From Desulfobacterales bacterium (GTDB lineage: Bacteria; Desulfobacterota; Desulfobacteria; Desulfobacterales; JARGFK01): a stretch of DNA of 62,516 nucleotides. Each line of letters starts with the position of its first letter. Position 1 is the stretch's first letter. Made by a program: the position numbers and the translations under genes. The notes beneath the pieces were generated by a model. The model had not been told where the DNA came from and searched no databases. It worked only from the letters and a program-made list of their open reading frames with translations. The stretch spans positions 14,623 to 77,138 of the forward strand of contig JARGFK010000005.1 in NCBI GenBank assembly GCA_029211065.1, given 5' to 3'. This document shows, piece by piece, positions 18,528 to 62,516 of the stretch.

Positions 18528-18572
18528 AGGCCTTCCCATTGTCTTTGGACGGTTATGACAACGGGAAGGCCT
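18528..18572 (-). terminator. Rho-independent terminator of the ArsB/NhaD-type gene
   Basis: Stem arms 18,528-18,543 and 18,557-18,572 (AGGCCTTCCCATTGTC against GACAACGGGAAGGCCT, one mismatch) with a 13-base loop. On the minus strand the stem is followed by TTTTCTTATA. It begins 28 bp past the stop codon at 18,601. Confidence 0.85.
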
Positions 18573-18600
18573 CTATGGTAAAGGCGTGTCGGCGGAGGCG

Positions 18601-34765: not shown

Positions 34766-34826
34766 AAACCGGAACCTTTTGAAAATAATTATTTTTTTAA
34801 ATCTGAACAACCAAGAGGAGAAACCC

Positions 34827-35336: not shown

Positions 35337-35357
35337 TCCATTTAAGGAGTGGGAGCG

Positions 35358-35741: not shown

Positions 35742-35819
35742 GTATAATAGCCCGGGGGCGGTTGGCGCCGCACCGGCATCGATACGCCATATTCTCGAAG
35801 ATACAGGAGGAAATCCATC

Positions 35820-38861: not shown

Positions 38862-38919
38862 GCGTGCCAGGCAGATATTCTTGACGACTATATGATATTT
38901 TAAATGGAGAGAACATACC

Positions 38920-40941
38920 ATGGAAACAAAGGTCAATAAGGTAAAGCTTTCGATAGACGGCAAAGAGGTCTTGGTTGATGACGGCTTGACCATCCTTGAA
39001 GCGGCCCGGCAAAACGGAATTGACATTCCGACCCTTTGCCAGCATGAGGCGCTTTCAAACTGGGGCGGATGCCGGATGTGCGTGGTTGAAGTCGACGGCT
39101 CTCCCAAGCTGATCGCCAGCTGCGTGATGCCGGTGCGAAGCGGCATGGCGGTGGTGACCACGAATGATTATATCCTTGAATGCCGCCGAACCATGATGGA
39201 GTTTATCTTTGCCGAAAGGAACCATAACTGCATGTTCTGTCCCCAGAGCGGGGATTGTGAACTTCAGAAACTTGCCTATGAATTGCAGATGGATCATCTG
39301 ACGGTTGCATTTTCCTTTAATAAGTTTCCCACGGATGTTACCAGTGAATATATGGCCATCGACCATAATCGCTGCATCCTGTGCGGACGGTGTGTGCGCG
39401 CCTGCAAGGAGATTGTCGGCGCGTCGGTGCTGAATTTCCAGAACCGCGGACCGAAAAACCTCATCGGTATGGATTTAGACGAAACCCGTGAACAATCCAG
39501 CTGCTACGGCTGCGGCATCTGCATGCAGGTGTGTCCCACCGGTGCGATGGTCAACCGCTACCGCAGCCACTATGCGGTCAAGGGGCATTCAAAGGACTGG
39601 CAGCCGCTCGATACCGTTTGCTCCCAGTGCGGGCTGCTGTGTCCGACCGTTAACTTTGTCAAGGACAATAACCTGCTCAACATTGAAGGCAAGCTCACGG
39701 GGGATAACGGCCGTCCGGATCGGGGCCAGCTCTGCTACAAAGGCCGGTTTGAAGCATTGAAAAATACGGGAAAACGCCTGGACAGTCCCATGGTGCGTTC
39801 CGGCAATGGCACCTGGGAAAAGTCGACCTGGGATGAAATTCTTAAACTGGTTTCCGGAAAGCTGAATGACGTTAAAAAGAAAGAGGGGGGCGAAGCCATA
39901 TTCGGGCTGGCTTCCAGTGCGGCATCCAATGAAGAACTGGTATTGTTCAGAGATTTCATGACGCAGGGATGCTCGGCTGTCTATGTGGACACTTTTGACG
40001 GGGCCCATTTCAGGACCGTTGCCGGAGTCTATAAGGAAGGGAAGGAAGCTTTCAGGGAAGCCTCATGGAAAATGATCCCGCAAGCCGATATGGTCATGCT
40101 GCTGGGCGCAGCCCCCTCCCAAAGCCAGCCGATGATTTCAACCCTCCTGGGCAAGGGGATCTTGCAACGCAGTCAAAAAGTGGCTGTTCTGGGGGAGACG
40201 GATCCGATTCAACCCTATGCTACGTATTATATTCCCGTGGCGGATGGGGCGCTGCCCCTGCTGATAGGAGCTCTGAAGGCCGGCATAAAGGGGTCGGGCG
40301 ATGGGGGTAAACTCCTGGAGAAGGCGGGTCTTGATGCAGATGCCGTCAAGGCTTTTCATGAAGTGGTTAAAGCCTTTTCCGATTCGGTAAACCCCTTATT
40401 TGTCGTGGGCGAAAAACTTACCGGTCTTGAGGATCCCGCCGTCTTGGCTGATATCGCGAGTCTGGCAAAGCAGAAGGGGCTTTATCCGGACAACACCCTG
40501 CGGCTGATCATCCTAAAACCCCGCGGCAACAGCGCCGGCGCCTGGAAGATGGGAATTTCATCTTCGAACAAAGTACCCGGCAAAAGCAAATGGAAAGCGG
40601 GCCTGGTCCTTCTCGGCGAACCGGACGATTCGTATCTTGCGGCTTTGGAAGGACTCAAAAGCGCAGGCTTTGTTGCGGCGATCAGCCCCTACTTTCCTGA
40701 ATCCCTGGCCGACCAGGTCGATGCACTGATCCCCAAACCCGCATGGCTGGAGGAGGAAGGAACCTTTACTTCCGTGGAGGGCCATGAAACCGCCTATAAG
40801 CAAAAAACGCTGCAGGCGCCGGCGGGGGTAATGGATTCATGGGAGATATTCAAAAATCTGGCTGAACGCGTCGGCTTTAAACCGGAGTATCAATCCTGGA
40901 AAAACCTTTCCAAAAAGGCCGAACACGAAATCAAAAAATAG
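38920..40941 (+). CDS. NuoG-like iron-sulfur subunit of the hydrogenase
   Basis: 673 residues. N-terminal [2Fe-2S] ferredoxin domain (C40, C51, C54, C68), a Cys-rich HNCMFCPQSGDC region, two [4Fe-4S] motifs CILCGRCVRAC and CYGCGICMQVCP, then a molybdopterin-oxidoreductase-like domain with its own CSQCGLLCP...C cluster at about 230-275. As in complex I NuoG the last domain probably carries no molybdenum. It is longer than HoxU (about 240 residues). It carries electrons between the flavin subunits and the HoxY-like small subunit. ATG with a GGAGAG site. Confidence 0.92.
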   Translation: METKVNKVKLSIDGKEVLVDDGLTILEAARQNGIDIPTLCQHEALSNWGGCRMCVVEVDGSPKLIASCVMPVRSGMAVVTTNDYILECRRTMMEFIFAERNHNCMFCPQSGDCELQKLAYELQMDHLTVAFSFNKFPTDVTSEYMAIDHNRCILCGRCVRACKEIVGASVLNFQNRGPKNLIGMDLDETREQSSCYGCGICMQVCPTGAMVNRYRSHYAVKGHSKDWQPLDTVCSQCGLLCPTVNFVKDNNLLNIEGKLTGDNGRPDRGQLCYKGRFEALKNTGKRLDSPMVRSGNGTWEKSTWDEILKLVSGKLNDVKKKEGGEAIFGLASSAASNEELVLFRDFMTQGCSAVYVDTFDGAHFRTVAGVYKEGKEAFREASWKMIPQADMVMLLGAAPSQSQPMISTLLGKGILQRSQKVAVLGETDPIQPYATYYIPVADGALPLLIGALKAGIKGSGDGGKLLEKAGLDADAVKAFHEVVKAFSDSVNPLFVVGEKLTGLEDPAVLADIASLAKQKGLYPDNTLRLIILKPRGNSAGAWKMGISSSNKVPGKSKWKAGLVLLGEPDDSYLAALEGLKSAGFVAAISPYFPESLADQVDALIPKPAWLEEEGTFTSVEGHETAYKQKTLQAPAGVMDSWEIFKNLAERVGFKPEYQSWKNLSKKAEHEIKK

Positions 40942-40989
40942 GAATTGCTTAACCAAACAGTTTTTAGCTGTTAACAATGGAGGTCGTTC

Positions 40990-41532
40990 ATGGCAAAACC
41001 GAAGGTAGCAACCGTGTGGCTGGAGGGATGCGCCGGCTGTCATATGTCCTTTCTGGATCTGGACGAAAGCCTGGTGGATATCCTGGGTAAAATCGAATTA
41101 ACGGTGACACCCATTACCGATTTTAAAGATTTTGATTTTCCGGAAGTAACGGTCGGAATTATCGAAGGCGGCGTCGGGAATCAGGAACAATTGGAAATTA
41201 CCCATCACCTCAGAAAGAAGTGCAAGATTCTTGTGGCCTGGGGAGATTGCGCGGTATTCGGAGGGGTCAACACGATGCGGAACTGGATTCCCACGGAAGA
41301 AATTCTCAGGCGGGGTTATATTGAGACCGAAAGCACGGTGAACGGCGTGTTGCCCATTCATGCAGAACTTCCTGTTCTGCTGGACAAGGTTCTCCCGGTA
41401 AATGAGGTGGTCCCCGTGGATGTATATGTACCGGGGTGCCCGCCCTCGCCGGAAGCCATTGCACATAGTTTAACTGAAATCTTACAGGGACGGCTGCCGG
41501 TTCTTCCAATAGAGCTGATCCATTTTGATTGA
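40990..41532 (+). CDS. hoxY: [NiFe] hydrogenase small subunit, HoxY type
   Basis: 180 residues, the short cytoplasmic type without Tat signal. The proximal [4Fe-4S] cluster ligands are seen in EGCAGCHMS (C14, C17), WGDCAVFGG and VPGCPPSPE. It connects the NiFe site of the large subunit to the diaphorase clusters. ATG with TGGAGG; the reading frame ends eight bases before the large-subunit ribosome site region. Group 3 assignment follows from its size and the neighbouring diaphorase genes. Confidence 0.94.
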   Translation: MAKPKVATVWLEGCAGCHMSFLDLDESLVDILGKIELTVTPITDFKDFDFPEVTVGIIEGGVGNQEQLEITHHLRKKCKILVAWGDCAVFGGVNTMRNWIPTEEILRRGYIETESTVNGVLPIHAELPVLLDKVLPVNEVVPVDVYVPGCPPSPEAIAHSLTEILQGRLPVLPIELIHFD

Positions 41533-41545
41533 GGAGACGACCGAT

Positions 41546-42976
41546 ATGAAGACTCTAAGAAAGATAACCATCAATCCCATCAGCCGGCTGGAGGGGCATG
41601 GGAAAGTGACCATCAACCTCGATGCAGCCGGCGAGGTGCAGGATGCCTATTTTCATGTAACCCAGTTCAGAGGATACGAAAAGTTCTGCGAGGGGCGGCC
41701 TTTTGAAGAGATGCCCATCATCACCCAGCGGATCTGCGGCATCTGTCCGGTCAGCCATCAGCTGGCATCGGCCAAGGCCTGCGACGCCGTCCTGGGGATC
41801 GAAATTCCCGCAACCGGCAAACTCCTCAGAGAATTAATGCACATGGGACAATTCATTCAGTCCCATGCCCTGCATTTCTTTCACCTGGCAAGTCCTGATC
41901 TCCTTTTGGGATGGGATTCGGATCCGGCCCAGCGCAATGTGGTGGGAGTGGTGGCGAAATTTCCGGAAATCGCCGTAAAGGGCATCCAATTGAGAAAGTT
42001 CGGCCAGGAGATCATCAAGGCCCTGGGCGGCAAAAAAGTCCATCCCGCATTCGCCATTCCGGGAGGGGTCACCAATACCCTGCACCGTGAAGACCGCGAC
42101 CGGCTGCTGGCTGGTTTTGCCGAAGCTTACAGCACCTGTGAAACGGCTCTGGACATTGTTAAAGGCTGGGGAGAGAAAAATCTGGCGGAAGTCAAACGGT
42201 TTGCCAATTTTAGATCCAATTATGTGGGACTCATGGATGAAAACGGATGCCCCAACATGTACGAAGGCAGAATTCGGATCGCAGACCCCGACAGGAAGGT
42301 GCTGGCTGAATTCGAACCCAAGGACTATCTGACATTTATCGGGGAGCATGTGGAACCCTGGTCTTATATGAAGTTTCCATTTTACAAAAGCCAAGGGTAT
42401 CCCCAGGGCGCTTACCGGGTGGGACCCCTGGCAAGGCTGAATGCCGCTGACGGCATGAGCACCCCTCGGGCGGACAAAGAGTTCAGGAACTACCTGGCCC
42501 TGACCCGGGACGGACTCTGGGGCTGCACCCTGCTGTATCATTACACCCGCCAGATCGAACTCCTGAATTGCCTGGAAAGAGCCGAGGAAATCCTGAAAGA
42601 TGAACGCGTTTGTGGGACTGAGATCCGAATTACGACGAACCCGTCCAATGCCGAGGGCGTCGGTGTCATCGAGGCGCCCAGGGGAATCTTGATCCATCAC
42701 TACTGGGTCAACAAGTACGGGGCTATTGAGAAGGCCAACCTGATTGTGGCCACCGGCCACAACAATATCGCCATAAATCGATCGGTTGAGCTGGTGGCCA
42801 AGGAATATATCCACAAGGGCGATGTTCGGGAAGGGCTGCTAAACCGTGTGGAAGGCGCGATCCGCTGCTATGACCCCTGCCTGTCATGTGCTACCCATGC
42901 CCTTGGCCAGATGGCGTTGAAAATCCAGATTTTCGGCCATAGCGGCGAGATTCTGCATGAATTGCGGAGGGATTAG
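41546..42976 (+). CDS. hoxH: [NiFe] hydrogenase large subunit, HoxH type
   Basis: 476 residues from the ATG at 41,546 (GAGGAG site nine bases upstream; a TTG at 41,525 overlapping hoxY is less likely). NiFe(CN)2CO ligands: [10 protein letters not shown] (C64, C67) and DPCLSCATH (C445, C448). A 25-residue C-terminal tail follows H451 and should be removed by the protease encoded next. The motifs resemble group 3d (bidirectional NAD-linked) enzymes. It catalyses reversible H2 oxidation in the cytoplasm and is complete, so the enzyme should be functional if the hyp genes are supplied. Confidence 0.95.
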
Positions 42977-42978
42977 CC

Positions 42979-43446
42979 GTGTCGACCCTTGAAGCACAGG
43001 CGTGTTGGATTGTCGGATACGGGAACCGGCAGCGCCGGGATGACGGCATTGGTCCCTATGTCGTGGAGAAACTGAAAGGGGCTTTAGAACAGAAAAAAGG
43101 GGTGCGCCTTCTGGCAGTGCCCCAGCTCGGGGCCGATCTGGTTGAAGATTTGCGGGAGGCCGATCAGATCCTGTTTGTTGACGCGACCATCGACAACCCG
43201 GAGGGCGGACGGAAATGGCGCCGGCTCTACCCTGAAATGCAGGTGCTTCCCTATCTGACCCATCATGTCGATCCGGCCTTCCTCCTGGGCCTTATGCAGG
43301 CGCTTTACAGTCGTGCTGCTTCCGCCTGGCTGGTTTCGATACACGGGAGTGATTTTGGATTCGGCGAGGGGCTCAGCCCGGAGTCTGCCAGGACAGCCGA
43401 TCGGGTAAGTCTTGAAATTTTAGAGTTTATCTGCCAGAAGAATTAA
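42979..43446 (+). CDS. [NiFe] hydrogenase maturation protease
   Basis: 155 residues of the HycI/HoxW/HyaD type. It has the GYGNRQRRDDGIGPYV nickel-sensing motif, DATID and the conserved HHVDP segment. It removes the C-terminal tail of the HoxH-like subunit after nickel insertion. It starts with a GTG two bases after the hoxH stop codon, so the two are translationally coupled. Confidence 0.92.
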   Translation: MSTLEAQACWIVGYGNRQRRDDGIGPYVVEKLKGALEQKKGVRLLAVPQLGADLVEDLREADQILFVDATIDNPEGGRKWRRLYPEMQVLPYLTHHVDPAFLLGLMQALYSRAASAWLVSIHGSDFGFGEGLSPESARTADRVSLEILEFICQKN

Positions 43447-48418: not shown

Positions 48419-50713
48419 ATGGCCGTCAAAAGCATGGTGCCGGAATGCATTGCAAGAAAGTTCAGGGTAAACGGCATCGTCCAGGGGGTCGGCTTTCGTC
48501 CTTTTGTTTATGGGTTGGCAAACCGGTACCGGCTGAAAGGCGAGATTGCCAACACCTCATCCGGGGTTTCCCTGCATGTTGAGGGTTTCCGTGAGGACAT
48601 CGAGTCCTTTGGCAGGGATCTTATCCAAAGCTGCCCGCCGCTGGCCCGCATAACCGATCTGGTGACAAGCGATGAACCCTTGAAGAATTTTCGCAAATTT
48701 ACCATCGCAAAAAGCCAACACCAAAAAACCGTTTCGACTCTGATTTCCCCGGATGTTTCCATCTGTGCCGATTGTTTTAAGGAGCTGTTCGATCCCACGG
48801 ATCGGCGGTATCGATACCCCTTCATTAACTGCACCAATTGCGGGCCGCGCTATACGATTATTGATCATATCCCCTATGACCGTCCCAACACCTCCATGCG
48901 GAAATTCAAAATGTGCCGCAGCTGTCAGTCCGAGTACGACGATCCCGGCAACCGGCGATTCCATGCGCAACCGAATGCCTGCGCCGTGTGCGGTCCCCAG
49001 GTCACCCTTTATGATCGTGCCGGAAAAAAGATGGATGCGCCCAATCCCGTCGAACATGCCGCGGCGCTGATAAAAGAAGGATATCTTCTGGCCGTCAAGG
49101 GTTTGGGTGGGTTTCATATAGCGGCCGATGCTGAAAACGATGAGGCCGTAACCCGCCTGCGGCAAAGAAAGCTTCGTGAAGAGAAACCGCTGGCGCTGAT
49201 GTCAACCGATCTGTCGGATATCGCTGTTTACGCCCATGTCGATGCCGAGGAAGAAAACCTGCTGACATCGCCGCAGCGCCCGATCGTTCTGCTGCGCAAG
49301 CGGATTCCCAATCCCCTTTCGCAACAGGTTTCTCCGCGCAACACGTATTTCGGTGTCATGCTTCCCTATACCCCCCTCCATTATCAGATTTTAAACTGCG
49401 GCTTTACGGCCCTGGTGATGACCAGTGGAAACCGCAGCGAGGAACCCATCGCCATCGATAATGACGACGCCTTTGCGCGCCTGGCGGATATTGCCGATTA
49501 TTTTTTAACCCATGACAGAGAAATCTATTTGCGCAGTGATGACTCCATCGTCAAACGAACAGCGGGCGACACCCGCTTTATGCGGCGCTCAAGAGGTTTT
49601 GTGCCGGCGCCTGTTTTTTTAAAATGCCGGGTCCCGCCTGTGCTTGCCTGCGGCGCCGAACAAAAAAATACGGTCTGTCTCACCAAAGGAAATCAGGCTT
49701 TTCTGAGCCAGCATATCGGAGATCTGGAGAATCTGGCAGCATATGATTTTTTTAAATTGACCATTGTGCATATGCAGCGGATACTGGATATCCATCCCGA
49801 AATCCTGGTCTGCGACCTCCATCCGGATTATCTGAGCACCCGCTATGTGCAGGAACAGGAAAAGGGCCAAAAGCTTCAGGTTCAGCATCACCATGCCCAT
49901 GTTGTGAGCTGTATGTCCGAAAACGGGCTGGAGGGAGAGGTGATCGGTCTTGCATTTGACGGAACCGGTTATGGAACGGACGGCAGCATCTGGGGCGGTG
50001 AAATCCTGATCGCGGGTCCGGCAGGTTTCAAACGGGCTGCGTCCCTATCGACCGTTTCCCTGCCGGCCGGTGCTTCCGCCATTAAAGAACCCTGGAAAAT
50101 GGCGGTCAGTTATCTCCATGCCGCTTTCGGCGAGGCTTTATGGAACCTGGACCTTCCGCTGTTTAAAGCGATCGATGAGAACCGGATCGTGCGAATCATT
50201 GAGATGATCACTAAGAAAATCAACTCGCCCGCCACCTCCAGCCTGGGTCGTCTCTTTGACGGCGTTGCCGCCATCGCGGGGATCCGAACGCATGTGTTTT
50301 TTGAAGGCCAGGCGGCTATGGAACTGGAGATGGCGGCATCAGAAAAGACGCCCGTATTTTATGACTATGAATGGAAATCGGAAGAAATCTATCAGGTGAT
50401 GGTGCAACCCATCATTCGGGCCGTTGTGCGGGATGTCCAGGAAGGTTTGCCGCTAGCGGAAATCAGCGCCAGGTTCCATTTGACCCTGATCCGGATGTTT
50501 ACCGACCTGTGCGGGGCGATCAGAGCCGACAGCGGCCTGAACCGGGTTGCGCTGAGCGGAGGGGTTTTTCAGAACGCGATACTTTTAAGTGGATTAGAAC
50601 AGGCCCTGAGCCATAAAGGGTTTGACGTTTACAGCCATCGCCAGGTACCGGCCAATGACGGGGGCATATCCCTGGGGCAGGCCGTGATCGCCGCTGCAGT
50701 GCTCGGAGGGTGA
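48419..50713 (+). CDS. hypF: Carbamoyltransferase HypF
   Basis: 764 residues, full length. Acylphosphatase domain (about 12-100, VQGVGFRPFVY), two zinc-finger pairs CADC/CTNC and CRSC/CAVC (about 118-200), YrdC-like domain (about 205-390), and Kae1-like carbamoyltransferase part with HHAHVVS and FDGTGYGTDGSIWGGE (about 480-764). It makes the cyanide ligands of the NiFe site from carbamoyl phosphate together with HypE. Starts three bases after hypC. Confidence 0.96.
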   Translation: MAVKSMVPECIARKFRVNGIVQGVGFRPFVYGLANRYRLKGEIANTSSGVSLHVEGFREDIESFGRDLIQSCPPLARITDLVTSDEPLKNFRKFTIAKSQHQKTVSTLISPDVSICADCFKELFDPTDRRYRYPFINCTNCGPRYTIIDHIPYDRPNTSMRKFKMCRSCQSEYDDPGNRRFHAQPNACAVCGPQVTLYDRAGKKMDAPNPVEHAAALIKEGYLLAVKGLGGFHIAADAENDEAVTRLRQRKLREEKPLALMSTDLSDIAVYAHVDAEEENLLTSPQRPIVLLRKRIPNPLSQQVSPRNTYFGVMLPYTPLHYQILNCGFTALVMTSGNRSEEPIAIDNDDAFARLADIADYFLTHDREIYLRSDDSIVKRTAGDTRFMRRSRGFVPAPVFLKCRVPPVLACGAEQKNTVCLTKGNQAFLSQHIGDLENLAAYDFFKLTIVHMQRILDIHPEILVCDLHPDYLSTRYVQEQEKGQKLQVQHHHAHVVSCMSENGLEGEVIGLAFDGTGYGTDGSIWGGEILIAGPAGFKRAASLSTVSLPAGASAIKEPWKMAVSYLHAAFGEALWNLDLPLFKAIDENRIVRIIEMITKKINSPATSSLGRLFDGVAAIAGIRTHVFFEGQAAMELEMAASEKTPVFYDYEWKSEEIYQVMVQPIIRAVVRDVQEGLPLAEISARFHLTLIRMFTDLCGAIRADSGLNRVALSGGVFQNAILLSGLEQALSHKGFDVYSHRQVPANDGGISLGQAVIAAAVLGG

Positions 50714-50784
50714 GGGGGACTTTTACTGAATGGACGCCGAACATTGAACGTCCACCATCGAATGTTGAATTGGAAAGGGAGCCG

Positions 50785-51975
50785 ATGGGCATTAAATACA
50801 TGGAGGAATACCGGGATCCGGAAATTGCCGGGCGTATTGCCGACAACATCAGGCGTGCGAGCAAACGGCCGATTCGCCTGATGGAGGTGTGCGGCACCCA
50901 CACCGTCTCTATTTTCAGGAACGGAATTCGCGGCATGCTCCCGAAAACCATCGCATTGCTGTCGGGCCCGGGATGCCCGGTATGTGTCACGACTCAAAAA
51001 GAGATCGACACGTTTATCCGGATGGCCGGGCTGGATGAAGTAATCATCGCAACCTTCGGCGACCTGATGCGGGTTCCGGGGACATCGTCATCCCTGCAGA
51101 AGCAACGCGCCGAGGGTCGGGACATCCGGATGGTTTATGCCGCGGATGACGCACTCAAGATTGCCAGACAGCATCCGGATAAAAAAGTGGTTTTTCCGGG
51201 GGTGGGTTTTGAAACAACCGCACCCACCATAGCTGCAACCCTGCTTGCGGCACGGGAAATGCGACTGGACAATTTTTTTGTTTTTTCGGCGCACAAATGC
51301 GTTCCGCCGGCGCTTTTTGCACTGATGGGAAACCAGGATGTACGCATTGACGGATTTATCTTGCCGGGCCATGTTTCCGTCATCATCGGTACCCGGGGGT
51401 ATGTTCCCTTTTTTCAGAAATATCGGGTCCCCTGCGTGGTTGCCGGATTTGAACCGGTCGATATCCTGCAGGCCATCTACACGCTAATCCGGCAGATCGA
51501 AAGCGGCAAGGCTGAGCTTTCCAATGATTATCGCCGGGTTGTTACGGTTGACGGAAACACAAAGGCCCAGCAGATCATGAAGGACGTTTTTGAGGTGCGG
51601 GATGCCGCCTGGCGTGGAATCGGCACCATCCCGGAAAGCGGGCTCAAGATCAGGGCGACATTCTCCGATCTGGACGCGGAAAAGATGCTTGATTTTAGAG
51701 TGCCGGAATCGGTGGAACCCAAGGGCTGCTGCTGCGGAGAGATCCTTACCGGCCGGAAGATTCCGCCGGAGTGTCCGCTGTATCAAAAAGTCTGCACGCC
51801 CGAAGATCCGGTGGGTGCGTGCATGGTTTCCAGTGAGGGGACCTGTGCGGCATATTATAGGTACCAGGGGTCAGGGATCGGGGGTCAGGGATCAGGGGCC
51901 AGAAGCCGGGGCCCAGGTGTCAGGGATCAGGTGTCAGGAAGAGAAAGGGACAAATCGCCTTGCACCGACAGCTGA
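50785..51975 (+). CDS. hypD: Hydrogenase maturation factor HypD, with repeat-derived tail
   Basis: 396 residues from the ATG at 50,785 (AAGGGAG site); the frame opens further upstream without a site. Family motifs MEVCGTHT, GPGCPVCVT, GFETTAPT, and the C-terminal [4Fe-4S] region CCCGEIL...CPLYQKVC...GACMVSSEGTCAAYY are intact. HypD assembles Fe(CN)2CO with HypC. The canonical protein should end near residue 363; the last 33 or so residues (SGIGGQGSGARSRGPG and onward) are translated from a GTCAGGG-type heptamer repeat, so the original stop codon has been lost or overwritten. Confidence 0.93.
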   Translation: MGIKYMEEYRDPEIAGRIADNIRRASKRPIRLMEVCGTHTVSIFRNGIRGMLPKTIALLSGPGCPVCVTTQKEIDTFIRMAGLDEVIIATFGDLMRVPGTSSSLQKQRAEGRDIRMVYAADDALKIARQHPDKKVVFPGVGFETTAPTIAATLLAAREMRLDNFFVFSAHKCVPPALFALMGNQDVRIDGFILPGHVSVIIGTRGYVPFFQKYRVPCVVAGFEPVDILQAIYTLIRQIESGKAELSNDYRRVVTVDGNTKAQQIMKDVFEVRDAAWRGIGTIPESGLKIRATFSDLDAEKMLDFRVPESVEPKGCCCGEILTGRKIPPECPLYQKVCTPEDPVGACMVSSEGTCAAYYRYQGSGIGGQGSGARSRGPGVRDQVSGRERDKSPCTDS

Positions 51976-52008
51976 AACCTGACCCCCGGCCCCTGAACCC
52001 TATTCAAC
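51868..52008. repeat. GTCAGGGATCG-type heptamer repeat region
   Basis: Runs of GGGTCAGGGATC units with 7- and 14-bp spacing start within the hypD frame and continue to a CTGAAACCTGACCCCCGGCC complement. The second part (about 51,921-52,000) is a degenerate copy of the hairpin region at 53,228-53,297. Confidence 0.85.
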
Positions 52009-52066
52009 AGATTGGGATAAGAATTAAAAAGAATGCTCGCTAAAACCTTGAGCTGAACCGGAGTTT

Positions 52067-53080
52067 ATGATGGCCAACGCTAAAATTCTTTTAGACCACG
52101 GGAGCGGCGGGAAAATGTCACACCGCCTGATTTCCGACATGATGCTGCCCCTTTTTGACAATCCCGTTCTCTCGCAAATGGATGACGGCGCCAAATTGGA
52201 GCTGGGGGGTAAACGGCTTGCCTTTTCAACCGACACGTTTACGGTGGATCCTATTTTTTTCCCCGGCGGCAGCATCGGTGATCTGGCGATCAACGGGACC
52301 GTCAACGATGTCGCCATGTGCGGCGCCACCCCGCAATATCTCAGCGTGGGATTGCTGATCGAAGAGGGTTTCGCCGTTGCGGATCTTGAAAAAATTCTCG
52401 TGGGGATGAGTCAGGCGGCGGCGGCGGCCGGAGTAACCGTTGTGACCGGGGATACCAAGGTGGTCCCCAAAGGGGCTGCCGACAGGATTTTCATTAATAC
52501 ATCCGGCATCGGCGTTATTCCTGAAGATGTGGTCGTCGGCAGCCGGCATGCCCGCGTTGGGGATGTGATTATCCTGAGCGGAAGCATTGCGGAGCATGGT
52601 GTCGTTATTATGACCCAGCGAGAAGGGATGACCTTTGCGTCTGACCTTAAAAGCGATACAGCGCCGCTGCACCTTCTGGTAAAAAGGATGCTTGGCGTCA
52701 GCCGGGATATCCATGTGCTGCGGGACCCCACCCGTGGCGGCGTCGGGACCGCCTTAAATGAGATCGCTGATCGCTCACATGTGGGGGTTGTCATCCATGA
52801 GGACAAAATTCCGGTTAAGAATGAAGTCCTGGGGATATGCGAACTGATGGGATTCGATCCGCTCTATATCGCCAATGAAGGCAAGCTGCTTGCGTTTGTC
52901 GGTCCGGCGCATGCCGAAAAAATTCTTGGGGCGATGCAGGCGGACCCAAACGGCTTGGATGCGCGTATCATTGGAGAGGTGGTTTCAGACAATCCCGGAA
53001 TGGTTTGTTTAAAGACCCGCATCGGTGGTATTCGAATCGTGGACATGCTGACCGGAGAGCAGCTTCCGAGAATATGCTAG
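52067..53080 (+). CDS. hypE: Carbamoyl dehydratase HypE
   Basis: 337 residues of the AIR-synthase-like fold. ATP-binding N-terminal half with DHGSGGKMS and FSTDTFTVDPIFFPGG, GDTKVV, and DPTRGGVGTALNEIA; ends in the conserved PRIC, whose terminal Cys becomes the thiocyanate carrier. It dehydrates the S-carboxamide from HypF. The ATG at 52,067 has GGAG three bases before; an ATG one codon later has better spacing. The stop codon enters a heptamer array. No hypA or hypB is in the window. Confidence 0.96.
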   Translation: MMANAKILLDHGSGGKMSHRLISDMMLPLFDNPVLSQMDDGAKLELGGKRLAFSTDTFTVDPIFFPGGSIGDLAINGTVNDVAMCGATPQYLSVGLLIEEGFAVADLEKILVGMSQAAAAAGVTVVTGDTKVVPKGAADRIFINTSGIGVIPEDVVVGSRHARVGDVIILSGSIAEHGVVIMTQREGMTFASDLKSDTAPLHLLVKRMLGVSRDIHVLRDPTRGGVGTALNEIADRSHVGVVIHEDKIPVKNEVLGICELMGFDPLYIANEGKLLAFVGPAHAEKILGAMQADPNGLDARIIGEVVSDNPGMVCLKTRIGGIRIVDMLTGEQLPRIC

Positions 53081-53300
53081 TCAGGCGTCAGGGATCGGGG
53101 ACCAGGGAGCAGGGAAGGACACGTAGGCAATAAGCAGTAAGTAGTAGGCAGTCGGCAATGGACTGTAGTTACAGGGATCGGGGACCGGGCGTCGGGGATC
53201 GGTTATCTGGAGTCAGGAGTCAGGAAACAGGTGTCAGGAAGAGAAAGGGGCAAACTGCTTTGCCCCGACACCTGAAAGCTGAAACCTGACCCCTGAAAAG
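53081..53300. repeat. Composite heptamer array and long hairpin
   Basis: Directly at the hypE stop: TCAGGCG/TCAGGGA units, spacer GGAAGGACACG, then TAGGCAA/TAAGCAG units, a further GTCGGGGATCGG block, and a strong hairpin at 53,228-53,274: CAGGTGTC/GACACCTG outside and GGGGCAAA-CTGC-TTTGCCCC inside. It contains no gene and separates hypE from the next kinase. Confidence 0.88.
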
Positions 53301-53310
53301 GAGTTGCCAT

Positions 53311-55209
53311 ATGTCTCAAGACAATATGAATCAGGAAAAATGGGATTTGCCTGAGGAGATAGATGAACAGAAACGCGTTGTCTTCAAGGAATTAAAAGAG
53401 CGGACGCGCTGGTTCATCAAGCTTCGCTGGTTTGTGCCGCCCAGTATTGCGATAGGGGCCGTGGTTGCCGAGCGAATCGGCTTCGGTCTTTCACTGGGGA
53501 CCTTCTTTATCGTCGCAACGTTTATATTTATCTATAATACGGTATTTCATTTCAAGAGTCGCACCCAGGTAGAGAACATTGTCAAGCAGCGGGAGTACAT
53601 TCGGAACCTGACCCGCTGGCAGTTCGGGCTGGATTTCGGTGCGATGTTTGTGCTGATTCACGTTACCGGCGGCATTGCCAGCCCGCTGATTTTCTTTTTT
53701 ATCTTCCATGTCATTTTTGCCTCGATCCTGTTGCCGCCGCGGGCGAGCTACGGTTTTGCAACCATGGTTGTGGCCGGCATGATCGCTATTACTACGGCCG
53801 AGCATACCGGACTGCTGGCGCACCACCCCCTGGCCCTTTCCGGCAAGTCGTTCAATCTGATCGATCTGCCTGCGCACGTGATGATCATTTTGGGATTTTT
53901 CAGCGCGTCGGTTTACATTACGGCCTTTTTCACTTCCTCCATCATGACCATGCTCCGAAAGCGGATATCCAACCTGGTGGATCTGTCCGAAGCGTTTAAA
54001 CGCCTGAACCGGAAACTGAACGCCCTGTATGCCATGACCCAGGCCATCGGTTCGATTCGCAAGTTTGATCAAGTGCTGAAAATCGTCACGGCGGAGCTGG
54101 GCCAGGTGATGGGCGTGGTGGGCATTTCCATAAAGCTCCTCAGCGAAGACGGTAAAGAACTCCGCTTTGTGGCGGCCGACGGACTGGTGGCCGATGTATT
54201 TAAAAGTAAAGTCGTGGCGGTGGACAAAAGTCCGCTGAACCGAGAGATCATTGAGGGCAAGCCCTTTGTAACCGGACACCTGACCCGGCGGGAAATGTTC
54301 CAGTTCGGGGAAGATCTTGCCGCCGCCCGGATTCAGTCGGTCCTGTTCGTCCCCCTTATCGTTGAAGAGAAAGTAATCGGCATTTTGGGGGCCTATTGTA
54401 AATCACCCGAACGGTTTACGCCCGAAGAAGTCGACTTTTTCAGACAGGCGGCCGGCCTGGTGGCGGTGGCCATTGAAAATGCGCAAGCCTACGAGTCCAT
54501 CGAAAAACTGATCCAGGAACGCACGAAATTCATGATGCGGGTGGCGCACAATCTGCGGTCGCCGCTGGCGGCGGTCATAAGCATCCTTAACGTGGTCCGG
54601 GGCGGGTATCAGGGCGAGCTGAACGCGGACCAAAGTGAATACCTGCGGCGGGTCGATCGGCGGGTTCGTACGATGCTGGCGATGATCAATGAGCTTCTAG
54701 TGCTGGCAAGAAGCCGGGAACAGCGGCGCAAGGCGGAATACAAACCGGTGGATATGAACCTTCTGGCCGGGAGGATGGAACGGACGTTTCAGGAGGAGGC
54801 CAGGCAGAAGGGGCTTGTTTTTGAGATGCAGGTCCCGGAAGCCCTACCCATCATTCAGGGCGATGGCGATATGGTTGAACAGGTGCTGGAAAATCTGGTT
54901 TCAAACGCCGTCAAGTACACGCCGTCCGGGGGGAAGGTACGGGTGGAATTTTCGGCCGCGGCCGAGGGATCGGTAAAAATCCAAATCAGCGACACCGGCA
55001 TCGGGATTCCGGCGGCGGCCAGGGTGCAGCTCTTTTCTGAATTTTTCCGGGCCGAGAACGCCCGTGCAATAGATGAACACGGAACCGGCCTGGGTCTGGC
55101 CCTTGTCAAGGAAGTCGTCGATCAGCACGGCGGACGGATCATTGTTGAAAGCGAAGAAGGGCTGGGTTCGCTGTTTGTGGTGAATTTTCCCGGCAAGAAT
55201 AAGGGTTGA
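53311..55209 (+). CDS. Membrane GAF sensor histidine kinase
   Basis: 632 residues. N-terminal membrane domain of about five or six helices (about 40-230), coiled coil, GAF domain (about 245-395), HisKA with H413, HATPase with N box, DTGIGIPA and GTGLGLALV. The phospho-acceptor box reads VAHNLRSPL: the acidic residue normally after His is Asn414. This type may still be active but could be altered in phosphatase or kinase balance. Strong AAAAGGAG site. Position downstream of hypE suggests redox or H2-linked control, without proof. Confidence 0.92.
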   Translation: MSQDNMNQEKWDLPEEIDEQKRVVFKELKERTRWFIKLRWFVPPSIAIGAVVAERIGFGLSLGTFFIVATFIFIYNTVFHFKSRTQVENIVKQREYIRNLTRWQFGLDFGAMFVLIHVTGGIASPLIFFFIFHVIFASILLPPRASYGFATMVVAGMIAITTAEHTGLLAHHPLALSGKSFNLIDLPAHVMIILGFFSASVYITAFFTSSIMTMLRKRISNLVDLSEAFKRLNRKLNALYAMTQAIGSIRKFDQVLKIVTAELGQVMGVVGISIKLLSEDGKELRFVAADGLVADVFKSKVVAVDKSPLNREIIEGKPFVTGHLTRREMFQFGEDLAAARIQSVLFVPLIVEEKVIGILGAYCKSPERFTPEEVDFFRQAAGLVAVAIENAQAYESIEKLIQERTKFMMRVAHNLRSPLAAVISILNVVRGGYQGELNADQSEYLRRVDRRVRTMLAMINELLVLARSREQRRKAEYKPVDMNLLAGRMERTFQEEARQKGLVFEMQVPEALPIIQGDGDMVEQVLENLVSNAVKYTPSGGKVRVEFSAAAEGSVKIQISDTGIGIPAAARVQLFSEFFRAENARAIDEHGTGLGLALVKEVVDQHGGRIIVESEEGLGSLFVVNFPGKNKG

Positions 55210-55367
55210 ACCGTGAAGACGCGAAGGGCGCAAAGTTGTTGAGTAAGAGCAAAGCATGTATAGCGCAGCTATCCGCCCCGCAGGACGGTAGCCTTTTTGC
55301 TGATCGTTTCACCCGATCAGTAAAAAACTGAAATAACCTTTGCGTGCTTGGCGTCTTGGCGGTTCAT
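55207..55367. repeat. Inverted repeat of AAGACGC-type octamers
   Basis: AACCGTGAAGACGCGAAGGG near 55,207 pairs imperfectly with the complement of TTGGCGTCTTGGCGGTT near 55,350. The arms are of a widespread bacterial intergenic type. Between them is a GATCGTTTCACCCGATC hairpin followed by AGTAAAAAACTG. No gene is seen. Confidence 0.7.
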
Positions 55368-55435
55368 TTTTGTAGGCAGGGCGGATCTGCGGGCGACGGG
55401 CGCCGCGAGGGGATAGCCATGGAGAGCATAAGCTG

Positions 55436-56716
55436 ATGAAAGTCTTGCTGATTTCCGCGAATACCGAATTGATGAACATGCCGGTTCTGCCGCTGGGGCT
55501 GGGGTGTATCGCTAGCGCGACGCAGATGGCCGGACATGATATTGCCCTGCTGAATTTAATGGCGCGTGAAGATGTCAGGGAAGTCCTTGCAGCATCCATA
55601 AAAGAGTTTAGGCCGAACGCCATCGGGATTTCCGTTCGGAATATCGACGATCAGAACATAGCGGAGCCCAAGTTCCTGCTGGAACCCGTTAGATCGATCG
55701 TTTCCTTTTGCCGCGAGCAGACCGACTGCCCCTTTATCATCGGGGGGGCGGGGTACAGCATTTTCCCTCAAAGCGCCCTTGAATATCTCGGGGCCGACAT
55801 GGGAATCCAGGGGCAAGGGGAACATGCTTTTGTTCAACTGCTGGAAAGACTTGAAAGGGGAGAGGACTTTGCTGGAATACCGGGTTTATACCTGCCGGAA
55901 AAGGGCCTTCAGGGCAAAATAAACTTTAAATTCAATCTGGACGATTTTCCACTGCCGCTTCCCGGCGCGCATTTAAGCGCCCCGGCCAACCTCCAAGGCC
56001 AGCAGATATGGCTGCCGTTTCAATCCCGCCGGGGGTGCCCGATGAAATGTTCCTATTGCTCGACGCCAATGATTGAAGGGCCGGTTTTGCACAAGCGAAA
56101 TTTGGAACAGGTGGTTGATTCATTGTCACAATATGTTGCGGCCGGGTTTGACCGATTTTTCTTTGTCGACAATGTGTTCAACTTTCCCAAATCCTACGCC
56201 AGGGAGCTTTGTGAGCGGATGATCGCGAAAAAAATCAATGTGAAATGGCGCTGCATCCTCTACCCCTGGAAAGTGGACGAGGATCTGGTCAAAAAGATGG
56301 CGCTGGCCGGATGCGAGGAGGTCAGCCTGGGGTTTGAGAGCGGTTCGGCCCGGATAATTAAAAACATGAATAAGTGCTACAGCCCGGATGAGGTTCGATA
56401 TATTTGCGATCTCTTAAAAAAATATCATATCCATATAATGGGGTTTCTACTGCTGGGGAGTCCCGGGGAAGATAAGGATACGATAACAGAAAGCCTTGCA
56501 TTTGCCGATTCGCTCCATACCGACTCCATAAGGATAACCGTCGGTATCCGCATTTATCCCTACACCCCGCTTGTACGGCAGGCAGTTAAAGACGGCATGA
56601 TAACGGCAGATGAAGATCTCCTTTTCCCTAAATTTTATATGGCCGACGATTTGAAAATGTGGACTATAGAAACCGTTAAAGGCTGGATAAAGGGACGTCA
56701 AAACTGGTTCATGTAG
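55436..56716 (+). CDS. B12-binding radical SAM protein
   Basis: 426 residues. N-terminal cobalamin-binding-like Rossmann domain (about 1-140) with GLGCIASATQMAGH and GGAGYSIFP, then a radical SAM barrel with the cluster motif CPMKCSYC near residue 200, SLGFESGS and a GFLLLGSPGED segment. Such proteins carry out methylations or other radical reactions on lipids, tetrapyrroles or natural products; the substrate cannot be read from the sequence. ATG with GGAGAG. It stands alone between two kinases on the same strand. Known cobalamin-binding histidine (DxHxxG) is not evident, so B12 binding is uncertain. Confidence 0.88.
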   Translation: MKVLLISANTELMNMPVLPLGLGCIASATQMAGHDIALLNLMAREDVREVLAASIKEFRPNAIGISVRNIDDQNIAEPKFLLEPVRSIVSFCREQTDCPFIIGGAGYSIFPQSALEYLGADMGIQGQGEHAFVQLLERLERGEDFAGIPGLYLPEKGLQGKINFKFNLDDFPLPLPGAHLSAPANLQGQQIWLPFQSRRGCPMKCSYCSTPMIEGPVLHKRNLEQVVDSLSQYVAAGFDRFFFVDNVFNFPKSYARELCERMIAKKINVKWRCILYPWKVDEDLVKKMALAGCEEVSLGFESGSARIIKNMNKCYSPDEVRYICDLLKKYHIHIMGFLLLGSPGEDKDTITESLAFADSLHTDSIRITVGIRIYPYTPLVRQAVKDGMITADEDLLFPKFYMADDLKMWTIETVKGWIKGRQNWFM

Positions 56717-56890
56717 CAGCGGGGAAAAAGCCTGAGAACAAACGATCGGGGGCAGGTTTGTTTTGCTGCGAATTTTTGGACGGGTCCGGAATCTCCTTGA
56801 TATTTTCCGGAGTTTCGTTATAAAAAGCACCTCTTGGTATTATCGTGCCATTTTATGTAACGACACCCTGCAACCGTTTTGAGATATCGC

Positions 56891-58660
<1,770 letters not shown>

Positions 58661-58725
58661 TCGACTTTGTCTCGGATTTTTATGATTAAAAATACAAATT
58701 CCAATTGTGGAAAAGGAGGAGGCCC

Positions 58726-60798
58726 GTGGGTGAAAATGAAAAACAGGCCGAGGAGAAAAAACCGGTCATCCTGCTCGTAGATGATGAGGACCAGTTCAGG
58801 ACCGCATTGGCCAAGCGGCTTTCCGTTCGCGGTTACGAGGTTCTGGACGTCGACAACGGTGAGGATGCCATCAAGATCGCCCGGCACAAAGACCCCGAAG
58901 TGGTGGTTCTGGATCAGAAAATGCCGGATATGGACGGCATTCAAACCCTGAAGGAACTCAAAAAAATCCGGCCGGAAGTCCAGATCATCATGCTGACCGG
59001 CCACGGTTCCATTGAATCGGCCCGGATGACCGGCAAACACGATGTGTTCGCCTATCTGCAAAAGCCGGCCCCATTGGATGAGGTCATCGAAAAGATCGAG
59101 GGGGCCCGCAACGAATTTCGGTATTCCAAAGCCCGCCATGAAATTCCCCATATCGAAGAAAAAAGCCTGAAAAGCTGGTTCATGGGGGTCCAGGGTGCGC
59201 GGCCGGGTTTCATCATTCTGGGCGCGCTGATTTTTGCCCTGATTTATTTCATGCCTCCGAGCGATCGTTTGAAGGCTCTGATAACAACGGAAAAGGGGAG
59301 TGCCGCGGAAGAAAAAATCTTGGGGTATTCGGATTTCCGGAGAATGAAGCCGGGCCAGACCGTCGCCCAGTATTACGCCGACCGGGCCGGTCTGTATGAA
59401 ACCGTGAAAAAACCGGACGGCACCAAAACAAAGGTGCTTCTGGGCGCCGGGGCGGTCATGAAGCGGGCCCATGTCATGATGGGCGTGCTGGTGGTGGCGG
59501 CCCTGTTTTGGGCCACGGGCGCCATGCCCGTGGGGGTCACCGCTTTGCTGGTGGGCGTGTTGATGTATTTCTTCGGCGTGCTCCCGCCCGATGGAGTGGC
59601 CCGCGCCTATGCCAAGGACGCCGTCATCTTTATCTTCGGGGTCCTTGCCATGGCAACGGCCATATCCAAAACCGGGCTCGACCGGCGCATCGGAATTCTG
59701 CTGCTGACCCCCAGCACGTCGATTATCCGCATGTGCCTGATATTCGCGCCCATGGTGGCCGTTACGGCAGCCTTCCTGTCCGAGCACGCCCTGATCGCCT
59801 TTATCGCCCCCATTTTCATGATGGTTTACATGGGGGCCGTGCGGGTAGGCGGGATTGCCAAGGACAAGGCCCTGGTGGTCATGATGCTCTTGACCCTCAA
59901 TTACGCCTGCAATCTCGGCGGACCCGGATCACCGGCGGCCGGCGGCCGCAATGCCATCATGATCGGCATCCTGGCCGACTACGGGATCAACGTGAGCTTC
60001 GGTCAATGGGTCCAGTACGGCCTCCCTTTCGTGCCGGTGGCGGCGATTATCATCGGCCTGTATTTCTATTTATGGGGCCGCAACAAACTTACGATCAAAA
60101 CGCTCAATGTGGCTGCGGCCGTCAGGCGTGAGTCGGAAAAAATCGGCAAAATGACCGCGGATGAATACAAGACCGCCGTGGTCCTGGTGGTCCTGATCTT
60201 CATGTGGTCCGCTTTTTCAGACCGGTACGGAATGGGCGGCCCGGTGATCCTGGCCTTAGTGGCATTGAATATCCTGGGGATACTGCGATGGAAGGAAGTC
60301 CAATCCATCCATTGGGACGTGGTTTTTCTCTACGCGGCGGCAAGCGCCATGGGAACCGGACTGGCCATGACCGGCGGGGCCCTGCTGATGGCCGATGCCT
60401 TTGTGAGCTTCCTGCCGGAAGTCATGAGCAAATCAGCCGCCGGGCTGAGTATCGCGACCTCCCTGTTTACCGGTGTGTTGACCAATTTCATGAGCGACGG
60501 CGCCACTGTGGCGACCATCGGTCCCATTGCCGTGCCCATGGCCACCATTGCCGGGGCATCGCCCGTCATGGTCGGTCTGGCAACGGCCTTTGCCTCTTCC
60601 TTCGCGCACATGCTGGTCATCGGGACCCCCAACAACGCCATCATCTTCGCCCTTGCCAAAGATTATGAAACCGGCGAGCAGCTGATCACCACTAAGGATT
60701 TCTTCGTGCACGGTTTTGTGGCATTGCTCCTGTCGTTTGCCGTGTTGTGGGGCTGGGTGATTTTGGGGTATTGGCAGTGGTTGAAATTTCCCGTATAG
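58726..60798 (+). CDS. Receiver domain fused to a DASS/SLC13-type carrier
   Basis: 690 residues from a GTG at 58,726 with GGAGG seven bases upstream. Residues 1-125 are a complete REC domain: D19-D20 region VDDED, phospho-acceptor D63 in VVLDQKMPDMDG, Thr in MLTGHG and Lys in QKP. A basic linker leads to a first membrane helix near 155-170, a soluble segment, and then about 11 membrane segments of a DASS/SLC13-like carrier with NLGGPGSPAAGGRNA, LTNFMSDGATVA and VIGTPNNAIIFA motifs. One uninterrupted frame. Phosphorylation of the cytoplasmic receiver should act on anion or carboxylate transport. The substrate is unknown; sulfate or dicarboxylates are typical of the family. Confidence 0.93.
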   Translation: MGENEKQAEEKKPVILLVDDEDQFRTALAKRLSVRGYEVLDVDNGEDAIKIARHKDPEVVVLDQKMPDMDGIQTLKELKKIRPEVQIIMLTGHGSIESARMTGKHDVFAYLQKPAPLDEVIEKIEGARNEFRYSKARHEIPHIEEKSLKSWFMGVQGARPGFIILGALIFALIYFMPPSDRLKALITTEKGSAAEEKILGYSDFRRMKPGQTVAQYYADRAGLYETVKKPDGTKTKVLLGAGAVMKRAHVMMGVLVVAALFWATGAMPVGVTALLVGVLMYFFGVLPPDGVARAYAKDAVIFIFGVLAMATAISKTGLDRRIGILLLTPSTSIIRMCLIFAPMVAVTAAFLSEHALIAFIAPIFMMVYMGAVRVGGIAKDKALVVMMLLTLNYACNLGGPGSPAAGGRNAIMIGILADYGINVSFGQWVQYGLPFVPVAAIIIGLYFYLWGRNKLTIKTLNVAAAVRRESEKIGKMTADEYKTAVVLVVLIFMWSAFSDRYGMGGPVILALVALNILGILRWKEVQSIHWDVVFLYAAASAMGTGLAMTGGALLMADAFVSFLPEVMSKSAAGLSIATSLFTGVLTNFMSDGATVATIGPIAVPMATIAGASPVMVGLATAFASSFAHMLVIGTPNNAIIFALAKDYETGEQLITTKDFFVHGFVALLLSFAVLWGWVILGYWQWLKFPV

Positions 60799-60873
60799 TT
60801 CGCATCACAGCTTTAAGGGGGCCGGTCTCAAATCCGTCCCCCAAAATGCAAACAGCCGAAGGAAATATCGATT

Positions 60874-61365
60874 TTGAAAAAGGAACAGATCAATTTGCTG
60901 CTGGTGGATGATGAGGACGCCCTGTTGGAATCCATCCGGCGGCGTCTTCAGGTCCGGGATTTCAACGTGATCGCCGTAAACCGGGGGGAAAAGGCCCTCG
61001 ATGTCGCCCGCACCCATCTCCTGGATGTCGCCATTCTTGATTTGAAAATGCCCGGCATGAGCGGAAAGGACGTGTTGATCGCACTGAAAAGGGATTATCC
61101 CTGGCTGGAAGTGATCATACTCACCGGGCACGGATCCTTTGATCCTGAAAATGAAAAAGAATTCGGAAAGGCTTACACCTATCTTTCCAAGCCGTGCGGT
61201 CTGGACACCCTGCTTAGGACCCTTGTGGAAGCGTACAAAAAAACGGTGATGAACCGGCAGGGGATCTCCCCTGAGGAAATGGCATCCCATTTAAGCCAGG
61301 TTGATGCCGCTTCTCCCCGGGATTTATTGAAAAAGCTGAAAGAACTGGACGGCAACAGACAATAG
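60874..61365 (+). CDS. Stand-alone response regulator receiver protein
   Basis: 163 residues from a TTG at 60,874 (AAGGAA site about ten bases upstream). REC with D12/D13, D56 in DLKMPGMSG and Lys in SKP; the segment after GHGSF is irregular (DPENEKEFGKAY), as in the neighbouring fused receiver, where the matching part is SIESARMTGKHDVFAY. No output domain. It lies 75 bp after the receiver-carrier gene and 28 bp before the CBS gene, so the three are probably one operon. Confidence 0.9.
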   Translation: MKKEQINLLLVDDEDALLESIRRRLQVRDFNVIAVNRGEKALDVARTHLLDVAILDLKMPGMSGKDVLIALKRDYPWLEVIILTGHGSFDPENEKEFGKAYTYLSKPCGLDTLLRTLVEAYKKTVMNRQGISPEEMASHLSQVDAASPRDLLKKLKELDGNRQ

Positions 61366-61393
61366 ACAAGAAACACAACCAATGGAGGGTTAA

Positions 61394-61948
61394 ATGGAGT
61401 CGATAATAGTAAAAGAGATGATGGTCCTGCTGGCGGATTATGCCACCGTGTCGGAGGAGGCAACTTTATACGAAGCCGTCCGCGCTCTGGAAGATGCCCA
61501 GGATAAATTCAACCAGGACCACTACCGGCACCGGGCGGTGCTGGTCTACGACGCCCGGGGAAAGATCGTGGGCAAACTGAGCCAGCTCGATGTGATCAGA
61601 GCCCTTGAGCCCAAGTATCAGGACGTGGGGGATTTCAAGGAGCTGGACGGGTATGGCATCAATGCGGATTATATCCGAAGCCTGATCAAGGAGCTCGGAC
61701 TGTTGAAGAGGCCCCTGGGCGAGATCTGCCGGAAAGCCGCGGCAGTCAAAGTCAAAAACATCATGTACACCCCCGCGGAGGGCGAATTTGTGGATGAGGG
61801 GGCGACCCTCAACGAGGCGGTGGTCCAGTTTCTGGTCGGAAAACACCAGTCCCTGCTGGTGACCCGGGGCAAGGAGATCGTGGGCATCCTGCGGCTGACG
61901 GATGTGTTTAAGAAAGTCTGCGATATGATCAGCTCCTGCAAGATATAA
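61394..61948 (+). CDS. Two-CBS-domain protein
   Basis: 184 residues with two CBS motifs: about 1-75 (HRAVLVYDARGKIVGKLSQLDVI) and about 118-184 (HQSLLVTRGKEIVGILRLTDVF), joined by a helical insert. No other domain. Probably a free-standing adenylate-binding regulatory protein for the preceding carrier or receiver. ATG with TGGAGG. Together with the CBS proteins at 15,157 and 20,627 it makes three CBS products, each next to carrier genes. Confidence 0.92.
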   Translation: MESIIVKEMMVLLADYATVSEEATLYEAVRALEDAQDKFNQDHYRHRAVLVYDARGKIVGKLSQLDVIRALEPKYQDVGDFKELDGYGINADYIRSLIKELGLLKRPLGEICRKAAAVKVKNIMYTPAEGEFVDEGATLNEAVVQFLVGKHQSLLVTRGKEIVGILRLTDVFKKVCDMISSCKI

Positions 61949-62516
61949 GACCCCCGGACCTGTTCATAATTTTGGAATAAAAAAGGAGTTTCTGCCGCGC
62001 CAGGAGGTTCGCCAGCCGGCATGGTCCCACGAGATCATGCGACAGTACTGGCTTCCCCGGCCGTAACTTGAGGGGTCAGGAGGCAGAAGTCAGGAGCCAG
62101 AAGTCGGTGCTTGGGGGAAGGACAAGTATGCAGTAGGCAATGGATTGCAGCAACGATTGTCAAATGGCCGGTCGTACAAACCCTTTAGCACGGGGAAAAG
62201 GAGGTAAAATAAAACATCTCACTCTGAATATCTGAAAAATGCAATCGCCTTGAATGCGATCTGACTTCAGAACCCCATGATGCACATTTTTCTGTGCACA
62301 ACCTGTCGCTCAGCCGCCTATCTTTTCCTGTCCGGTTATCGCTGATGCTCGATTTTATATAATGATATAAGGTTGTTAAAAAATATTTCCGGATTTTACA
62401 TTTAACAAATCATTATGGCATAAATTTTGTATTAAATATTTAATTTCCCTTAGGTAAACCTCCGGCTATGCCGGAGGACTCCCAGAGTTTGACAATTCCG
62501 GGAATATAAGAAAGCC
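61949..62516. other. Gene-free end region with repeats
   Basis: No gene is seen. A composite heptamer block lies at about 62,070-62,150: GTCAGGA/GCCAGAA units, the spacer GGGGAAGGACAAG, then TATGCAG/TAGGCAA units, in the same order and orientation as elsewhere. A GTGCA-type small hairpin is near 62,283, and 62,340-62,450 is very AT-rich. A TGGCAT-AAATT-TTGTA sequence near 62,417 resembles a -24/-12 element but lacks the -12 GC. Confidence 0.6.
62459..62477. repeat. CCTCCGGC stem-loop
   Basis: Perfect eight-base stem CCTCCGGC-TAT-GCCGGAGG with a three-base loop. No T-run follows on either side, so it is not an obvious intrinsic terminator. It may be part of a leader for a gene beyond the right edge. 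Confidence 0.6.

Follow-up and report, generated by a model that had tools for sequence, protein, structure and literature searches.

The window, by which we mean the whole stretch of 62,516 nucleotides analysed here, carries on its forward strand, at 58726–60798, the gene of a receiver–DASS fusion protein of 690 amino acid residues. The frame of 690 codons is single and open, with no internal stop, and its GTG start at 58726 lies 6 bases downstream of a Shine–Dalgarno-like AGGAGG (58714–58719). Residues 12–128 (58759–59109) form a receiver domain, matched by the Pfam family Response_reg over residues 15–124 with 89.4 bits (cut-off 30.2; E 2.3e-25). The predicted phospho-acceptor, Asp63, is encoded at 58912–58914; the acidic pair D19/D20, T91, and K113 are also present, and Y110 occupies the aromatic switch position. 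A linker, residues 129–160 (59110–59205), leads to a complete DASS-like carrier, residues 161–690 (59206–60795), in which a first hydrophobic run is followed by a loop of about 60 residues and then by the canonical core. Two Pfam families cover this part, Na_sulph_symp at residues 245–686 (103.6 bits, cut-off 27; E 1.7e-29) and CitMHS at residues 260–620 (91.8 bits, cut-off 31.9). Together with Response_reg these are the only Pfam matches of the protein at E ≤ 0.001; an SPX domain, HisKA, and HATPase_c are all absent from the scan. The initial annotation had described one frame composed of a receiver and a carrier, the receiver being complete with D63 and its acidic pair; the first claim is borne out by the ORF reading and Pfam, and the second by the presence of all five residues. 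A hydropathy scan of the fusion gave no reliable count of membrane segments, topology, or charge rule. Promoter and terminator scans came out near chance (7 found against 4.7 expected; 4 against 7.2), and an Rfam scan of 50000–62516 returned no match.

The carrier part is DASS-like, that is, related to the family by profile and by predicted fold, with an altered binding motif. The AlphaFold2 model, made from 15 sequences, has a mean pLDDT of 67 and a pTM of 0.55; its receiver is poor, so the model is used in support of the carrier fold only, and we claim neither a contact between receiver and carrier nor a placement of the receiver. When residues 145–690 of the predicted model are compared with solved DASS structures, the top match is Pho90 (Z 35.0), followed by the best chains of NaDC3 (34.7), NaCT (34.5), NaS1 (33.7), and VcINDY (33.1); other states and relatives of these structures score down to about 19. 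In VcINDY, two SNT motifs hold substrate and Na+ (PMC7553777, PMC9098524). Both motifs were looked for in the fused carrier and neither is present: the first is replaced by SEH (residues 352–354; 59779–59787) and the second by SDG (residues 590–592; 60493–60501). SEH and SDG are kept in 21 of 21 aligned rows of the fused clade and in 17 of 17 rows of its unfused sisters, and the deepest fused member, L091, reads by eye PEY instead of SEH. The NCBIfam dass model (TIGR00785) matches with 148.5 bits, below its cut-off of 198.6 (E 2.3e-43). The SLC13-like carrier of the initial annotation therefore stands by profile and predicted fold, but the SNT re-entrant motifs do not. Since these motifs are replaced and the NCBIfam DASS model stays below its cut-off, the substrate and the coupling ion are uncertain, and the replacement of both motifs weakens the earlier designation of an anion or carboxylate. 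An acidic residue where asparagine is expected may point to a change of coupling ion or of substrate. The published context of the clusters described below suggests, as a best guess, sulfate or a related anion.

Directly upstream of the fusion, on the same strand, lies a Cache-type sensor histidine kinase of 593 residues when read from a TTG at 56879 (56879–58660), with an ATG at 56891. Its HATPase_c (83.1 bits) and HisKA (27.5 bits) matches are above the Pfam cut-offs, and its dCache_1 match (39.9 bits, E 4.4e-10) is below the cut-off of 45. A HEINNP box is present in 13 of the 13 cognate kinases listed. Downstream, 60874–61365 encodes a single-domain receiver of 163 residues, here called RR2, which matches Response_reg only and no DNA-binding family in the Pfam scan. 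It is followed at 61394–61948 by a CBS-pair protein of 184 residues, with Pfam CBS matches in two stretches. The gaps between kinase, fusion, RR2, and CBS genes measure 65, 75, and 28 bases; such short gaps on one strand make it likely that the four genes form an operon. The kinase is presumed to be the one that serves the fused receiver.

This layout recurs. A cognate Cache-kinase is found directly upstream and on the same strand in 25 of the 28 distinct fused loci that have at least 900 bases of upstream sequence, including L046, whose kinase is cut by the contig start; identical loci (L048/L102, L049/L103, and L055/L093) were counted once each. As for the others, the kinase gene of L095 has the opposite orientation and is separated from the fusion by a small receiver gene, and L045 and L050 are without the usual upstream kinase, L045 having another one. 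The kinase just upstream of the fusion, pointed out in the initial annotation, is thus a conserved feature of fused loci. In 27 of 33 fused loci, the first gene of these kinds to follow the fusion is RR2, which in L057 lies inside a longer frame that overlaps the end of the carrier; RR2 is missing at that place in L045, L049, L051, L083, L091, and L105. The residues D, D, D, T, and K of RR2 are unchanged in all 22 rows, two of which are the window's sequence. Each of the 11 loci in the window's subclade also has the CBS protein, in one case encoded on the opposite strand. Among unfused sisters, a Cache-kinase or a receiver lies within 3.5 kb of the carrier in 17 of 17, and a receiver protein of at most 240 residues in 15 of 17, the sources of the other two being short. 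An unusual order of domains was seen in five loci, where the kinase upstream of the fusion has an N-terminal receiver before its Cache domain (L074 2792–4870, L075 11316–13367, L082 9454–11499, L096 5898–7943, and L098 5553–7598).

The main survey covered 389 genomes of the same order, Desulfobacterales, with three candidates scored per genome and a match threshold of E ≤ 1e-110. The fusion protein was matched in 80 of these genomes. Thirty-two of the 389, the window's own included, have a full-length open fusion, with identities of 48–100%. The unfused carrier alone is found in 42 of the 80, among them G665, counted as unfused, in which a receiver gene lies in frame just upstream of the carrier. 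Rows are partial in a further 6 of the 80 (G464, G663, G698, G710, G743, and G760), those of G698 and G743 consisting of carrier residues only. A differently drawn sample has the full fusion in 6 of 58 nearer relatives and a phylum-wide sample in 3 of 395 genomes, both counts including the window's own genome. A collection of named genomes, some of which are also among the 389, adds 13 loci (L045–L057) that fall within the fused clade. In two of these, L051 and L056, the contig ends inside the gene; in L056 this is at the contig start, where a receiver would lie. L057 bears a Poribacteria label, and we claim no spread beyond the phylum. At E ≤ 1e-110, with three candidates scored per genome, none of the 80 genomes shows the full fusion together with the unfused form, as expected of interchangeable forms. 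The window's own genome has a more distant unfused relative (E 8e-104), so the two forms are not strictly exclusive.

An assembly or sequencing artefact that joined two neighbouring genes is refuted by these counts, and we give it practically no probability. Arrangements that look like a split version do exist in two unfused relatives, L084 and L092, in which a receiver gene lies 18 bases upstream of the carrier. The open fusion, however, occurs in 32 of 389 genomes, including two genomes that are each a single contig (G453 and G622), and also in an isolate, Desulfatitalea alkaliphila (Desulfobacterales, Desulfosarcinaceae). The frameshift that the initial annotation named as a possible refutation is excluded, since 31 more of the 389 genomes carry this fusion as an open frame.

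The receiver is about as well preserved as the carrier to which it is joined. None of the 31 aligned fusions departs from D19, D20, D63, T91, and K113, and 30 of them have Y or F at the aromatic switch position. The identity of 18 other fusions to that of the window is 65–93% in the receiver and 64–90% in the carrier core, against 34–72% in the linker. In the seven pairs tested, the carrier dN/dS is 0.04–0.10; in the five of these pairs for which a receiver dS could be computed (the other two gave none), the receiver dN/dS is 0.02–0.09. With low dN/dS and invariant catalytic residues, the receiver shows an intactness that is not expected of a domain without a job. The Response_reg profile matches 12 of the 15 members of set A1, which is made up of 12 fusions and 3 unfused carriers.

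A phylogeny of 59 carriers unites the fused ones in a single clade (33 rows, support 95), with a clade of unfused carriers (18 rows, support 98) as its sister. The receiver is seen directly in 32 of the 33 fused-clade rows, L056 being the one cut by its contig end, and L053 is fused with a receiver that starts at residue 45. An earlier tree of 68 carriers agrees, with L053 and L056 counted among its fused rows. That tree left out 26 short loci, 25 of them represented by the window or by a longer piece of their contig, as well as one identical row and carrier matches of at most 300 residues, such as the fragment L019; the receiver-only locus L006 and carriers of the window's own genome that lack a fetched locus, such as C31, are also absent from it. 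The deepest fused member is L091, with 48% identity and a kinase already directly upstream; its branch is long, which makes its place less sure. Fifteen of 17 aligned unfused sisters begin inside the linker region; of the remaining two, one extends further at its start and the other is incomplete. Since the sisters start at the linker and the carrier fold extends over residues 145–690, we conclude that the receiver was added to a whole carrier, and, by the tree, once.

As to the source of the receiver, a receiver tree puts the fused receivers in one clade (support 100), nested in a group (support 99) with stand-alone receivers and receiver–CBS proteins of the same islands; the NtrC-like receivers are outside this group. 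The tree has few columns, covers receivers of the fetched loci only, with L058–L070 left out, and gives no settled nearest sister. The stand-alone receivers that adjoin unfused carriers in L084, L092, and L078 were considered as direct ancestors of the fused receiver and rejected, as they look NtrC-like: those of L084 and L078 fall among the NtrC-like receivers with support 90, and that of L092, which is outside the tree, reads much like L078. The NtrC-like receivers of L084 (4533–4901) and L092 (6795–7220) stand before their unfused carriers in a fusion-like order, and they appear to be an independent second case of a receiver paired with this carrier and not the source of the fusion.

The islands that carry the fusion hold further DASS types, beside receiver–CBS proteins and receiver–kinase hybrids, and some also hold NtrC-like regulators. 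A second module of the window, on the reverse strand at 13196–19932, includes a Cache-kinase, a receiver–CBS fusion (15157–16002), a TauE/SafE protein (17070–18116), and a CitMHS permease (18601–19932), which hints that receiver–CBS proteins also partner carriers of other families. On the same strand, the segment 27375–33865 contains a DASS paralogue (29271–30851) with the motifs HDA and ANV, adjoining a receiver–kinase hybrid, stand-alone receivers, and a Cache-kinase. Just before the window, L071 (10795–14376) encodes a Yip1-domain protein, a DASS protein of 627 residues, and a receiver–CBS protein of 300 residues. The pair of a DASS protein of about 615 residues and a receiver–CBS protein recurs in many fetched loci; the Yip1-type third protein was scanned in L071 only. 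Judged by their translations, the genes at 34779–43446 and 48419–53080 of the window look like an NAD-linked hydrogenase operon and hypF/hypD/hypE.

Response regulators normally have DNA-binding, enzymatic, or protein-binding domains as their outputs. The fused gene encodes a real response regulator with a transporter as its output domain, combining two known kinds of protein. We propose, and on the sequence evidence hold to be rather probable, that phosphorylation of Asp63 by the upstream kinase tunes transport by the fused carrier. A cue read by the Cache domain would set the level of Asp63 phosphorylation by this kinase. The receiver, which we would place on the cytoplasmic N-terminus of the carrier, would then change its contacts or its dimer state and so ease or restrain the elevator cycle, and transport would shift quickly, with no need of transcription. 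RR2 probably draws phosphoryl groups from the same kinase, either as a sink or as a competing or second output, and the CBS protein probably reports the internal nucleotide state. The variable linker would fit a tether as well as a lever.

The nearest functional precedent for a receiver-tuned carrier is found in yeast, in proteins that share the carrier fold: Pho87 and Pho90 are held back by an SPX domain at their N-terminus, and uptake rises by as much as eightfold once that domain is removed (PMC7381174). The likeness to the SPX–DASS phosphate transporters Pho87, Pho90, and Pho91 is one of architecture, an N-terminal domain before a complete DASS carrier, and regulation by the receiver is suggested by analogy. 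The yeast proteins, in contrast, are eukaryotic, transport phosphate, and carry SPX where the fusion carries a receiver, and SPX proteins answer to inositol pyrophosphates and not to a histidine kinase. The fusion may thus work like Pho90, yet it is no member of the SPX–DASS group.

The main rival to phosphorylation-tuned transport has information flow from carrier to kinase, as has been proposed for transceptors of the CbrA type. The receiver would serve to hold the kinase at the carrier, whose transport or occupancy state would control the kinase, and the real output would be RR2, together with the CBS protein. Joins of transporters and kinases are known, and CbrA has been called a transceptor (PMC13022988; also PMC7096432); the variability of the linker and the co-inheritance of RR2 in 27 of 33 loci, with its catalytic residues kept, also agree with such an arrangement. 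Mere docking, however, would not need the phospho-acceptor chemistry that is kept in 31 of 31 fusions. Moreover, RR2 has no DNA-binding family, which leaves the path to an output unexplained, and it is missing in 6 of the 33 loci. We regard this reading as unlikely. A comparison of the divergence of kinase, receiver, carrier, and RR2 in 12 loci, in which the Cache part is the least conserved and receiver and carrier the most, does not decide between the readings.

It is also conceivable, if improbable in our judgment, that control is by transcription only, the kinases acting via promoter-bound response regulators and the fused receiver being a phosphate sink or a leftover. Control of this kind has been proposed for DASS/two-component/CBS clusters, with regulators called WalR type (PMC11887813), and the NtrC-like regulators of some islands would suit it. 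It accords poorly with RR2, which matches Response_reg only, and with the size of the receiver proteins in the compared loci: 95 of 152 receivers are in proteins of at most 230 residues, many of them too short for an added DNA-binding domain, RR2 alone having been scanned with Pfam. The fused receiver itself has no DNA-binding part and is conserved about as much as the carrier, which also counts against this reading.

The genes of this locus have published relatives. A 2025 study described a DASS/two-component/CBS cluster of 30.5 kb from Desulfosarcina variabilis, as well as related ones from other sulfate reducers, with a model in which external sulfate is sensed, transporters are formed via WalR-type regulators, and internal control is CBS-based (PMC11887813). 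A 2018 study sorted the DASS proteins of sulfate reducers into groups, of which group Cii spans 474 to 691 residues (PMC5840216). The window's locus resembles these Desulfobacteraceae clusters and group Cii in gene types, in kindred bacteria, and in protein length, and a member of group Cii with 691 residues may represent a fusion of this kind. The excerpts of the two papers mention no carrier-fused receiver, and the 2025 model is transcriptional, unlike what we propose for the fused carrier. The SLC5–STAC histidine kinases CbrA, CrbS, and RpuS likewise link a secondary transporter covalently to two-component parts; theirs, however, is joined to the kinase, on the input side, whereas the fusion's is of another transporter family and is joined to the receiver, on the output side. 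A further likeness is to LacS, also a bacterial carrier with its own soluble phosphorylatable domain, the control of the fusion by phosphorylation being proposed here. LacS differs in that its EIIA-like domain is phosphorylated by HPr of the PTS and its carrier belongs to the GPH family. According to the excerpts of a 2023 review, no bacterial transporter other than LacS is controlled through direct phosphorylation of the transporter itself; the text of the review does not contain the words response regulator, two-component, or histidine kinase (PMC10710835). That LacS alone is named supports the initial view of the receiver–carrier design as rare. Among the literature matches listed, no title or abstract opening concerns a receiver–DASS fusion; surveys of response regulators may mention one.

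A receiver built into a carrier would make the transporter a direct output of a two-component system. Should it carry sulfate or a related anion, the fusion would allow rapid control of the step with which sulfate reduction begins, for which the published model is transcriptional (PMC11887813). It is tempting to take a wider view, which we offer tentatively and rate at somewhat less than an even chance: many sulfate reducers may regulate anion uptake by direct phosphorylation of the carrier machinery. In the usual version, stand-alone receivers and receiver–CBS proteins would act on DASS-like carriers, and perhaps on CitMHS and TauE carriers, without transcription, and one old lineage would have built the receiver into its carrier. 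The fusion turns the role of the clusters' many stand-alone receivers into an experiment on a single protein and, should the wider view be true, would be a Rosetta stone that reveals the target of these receivers.
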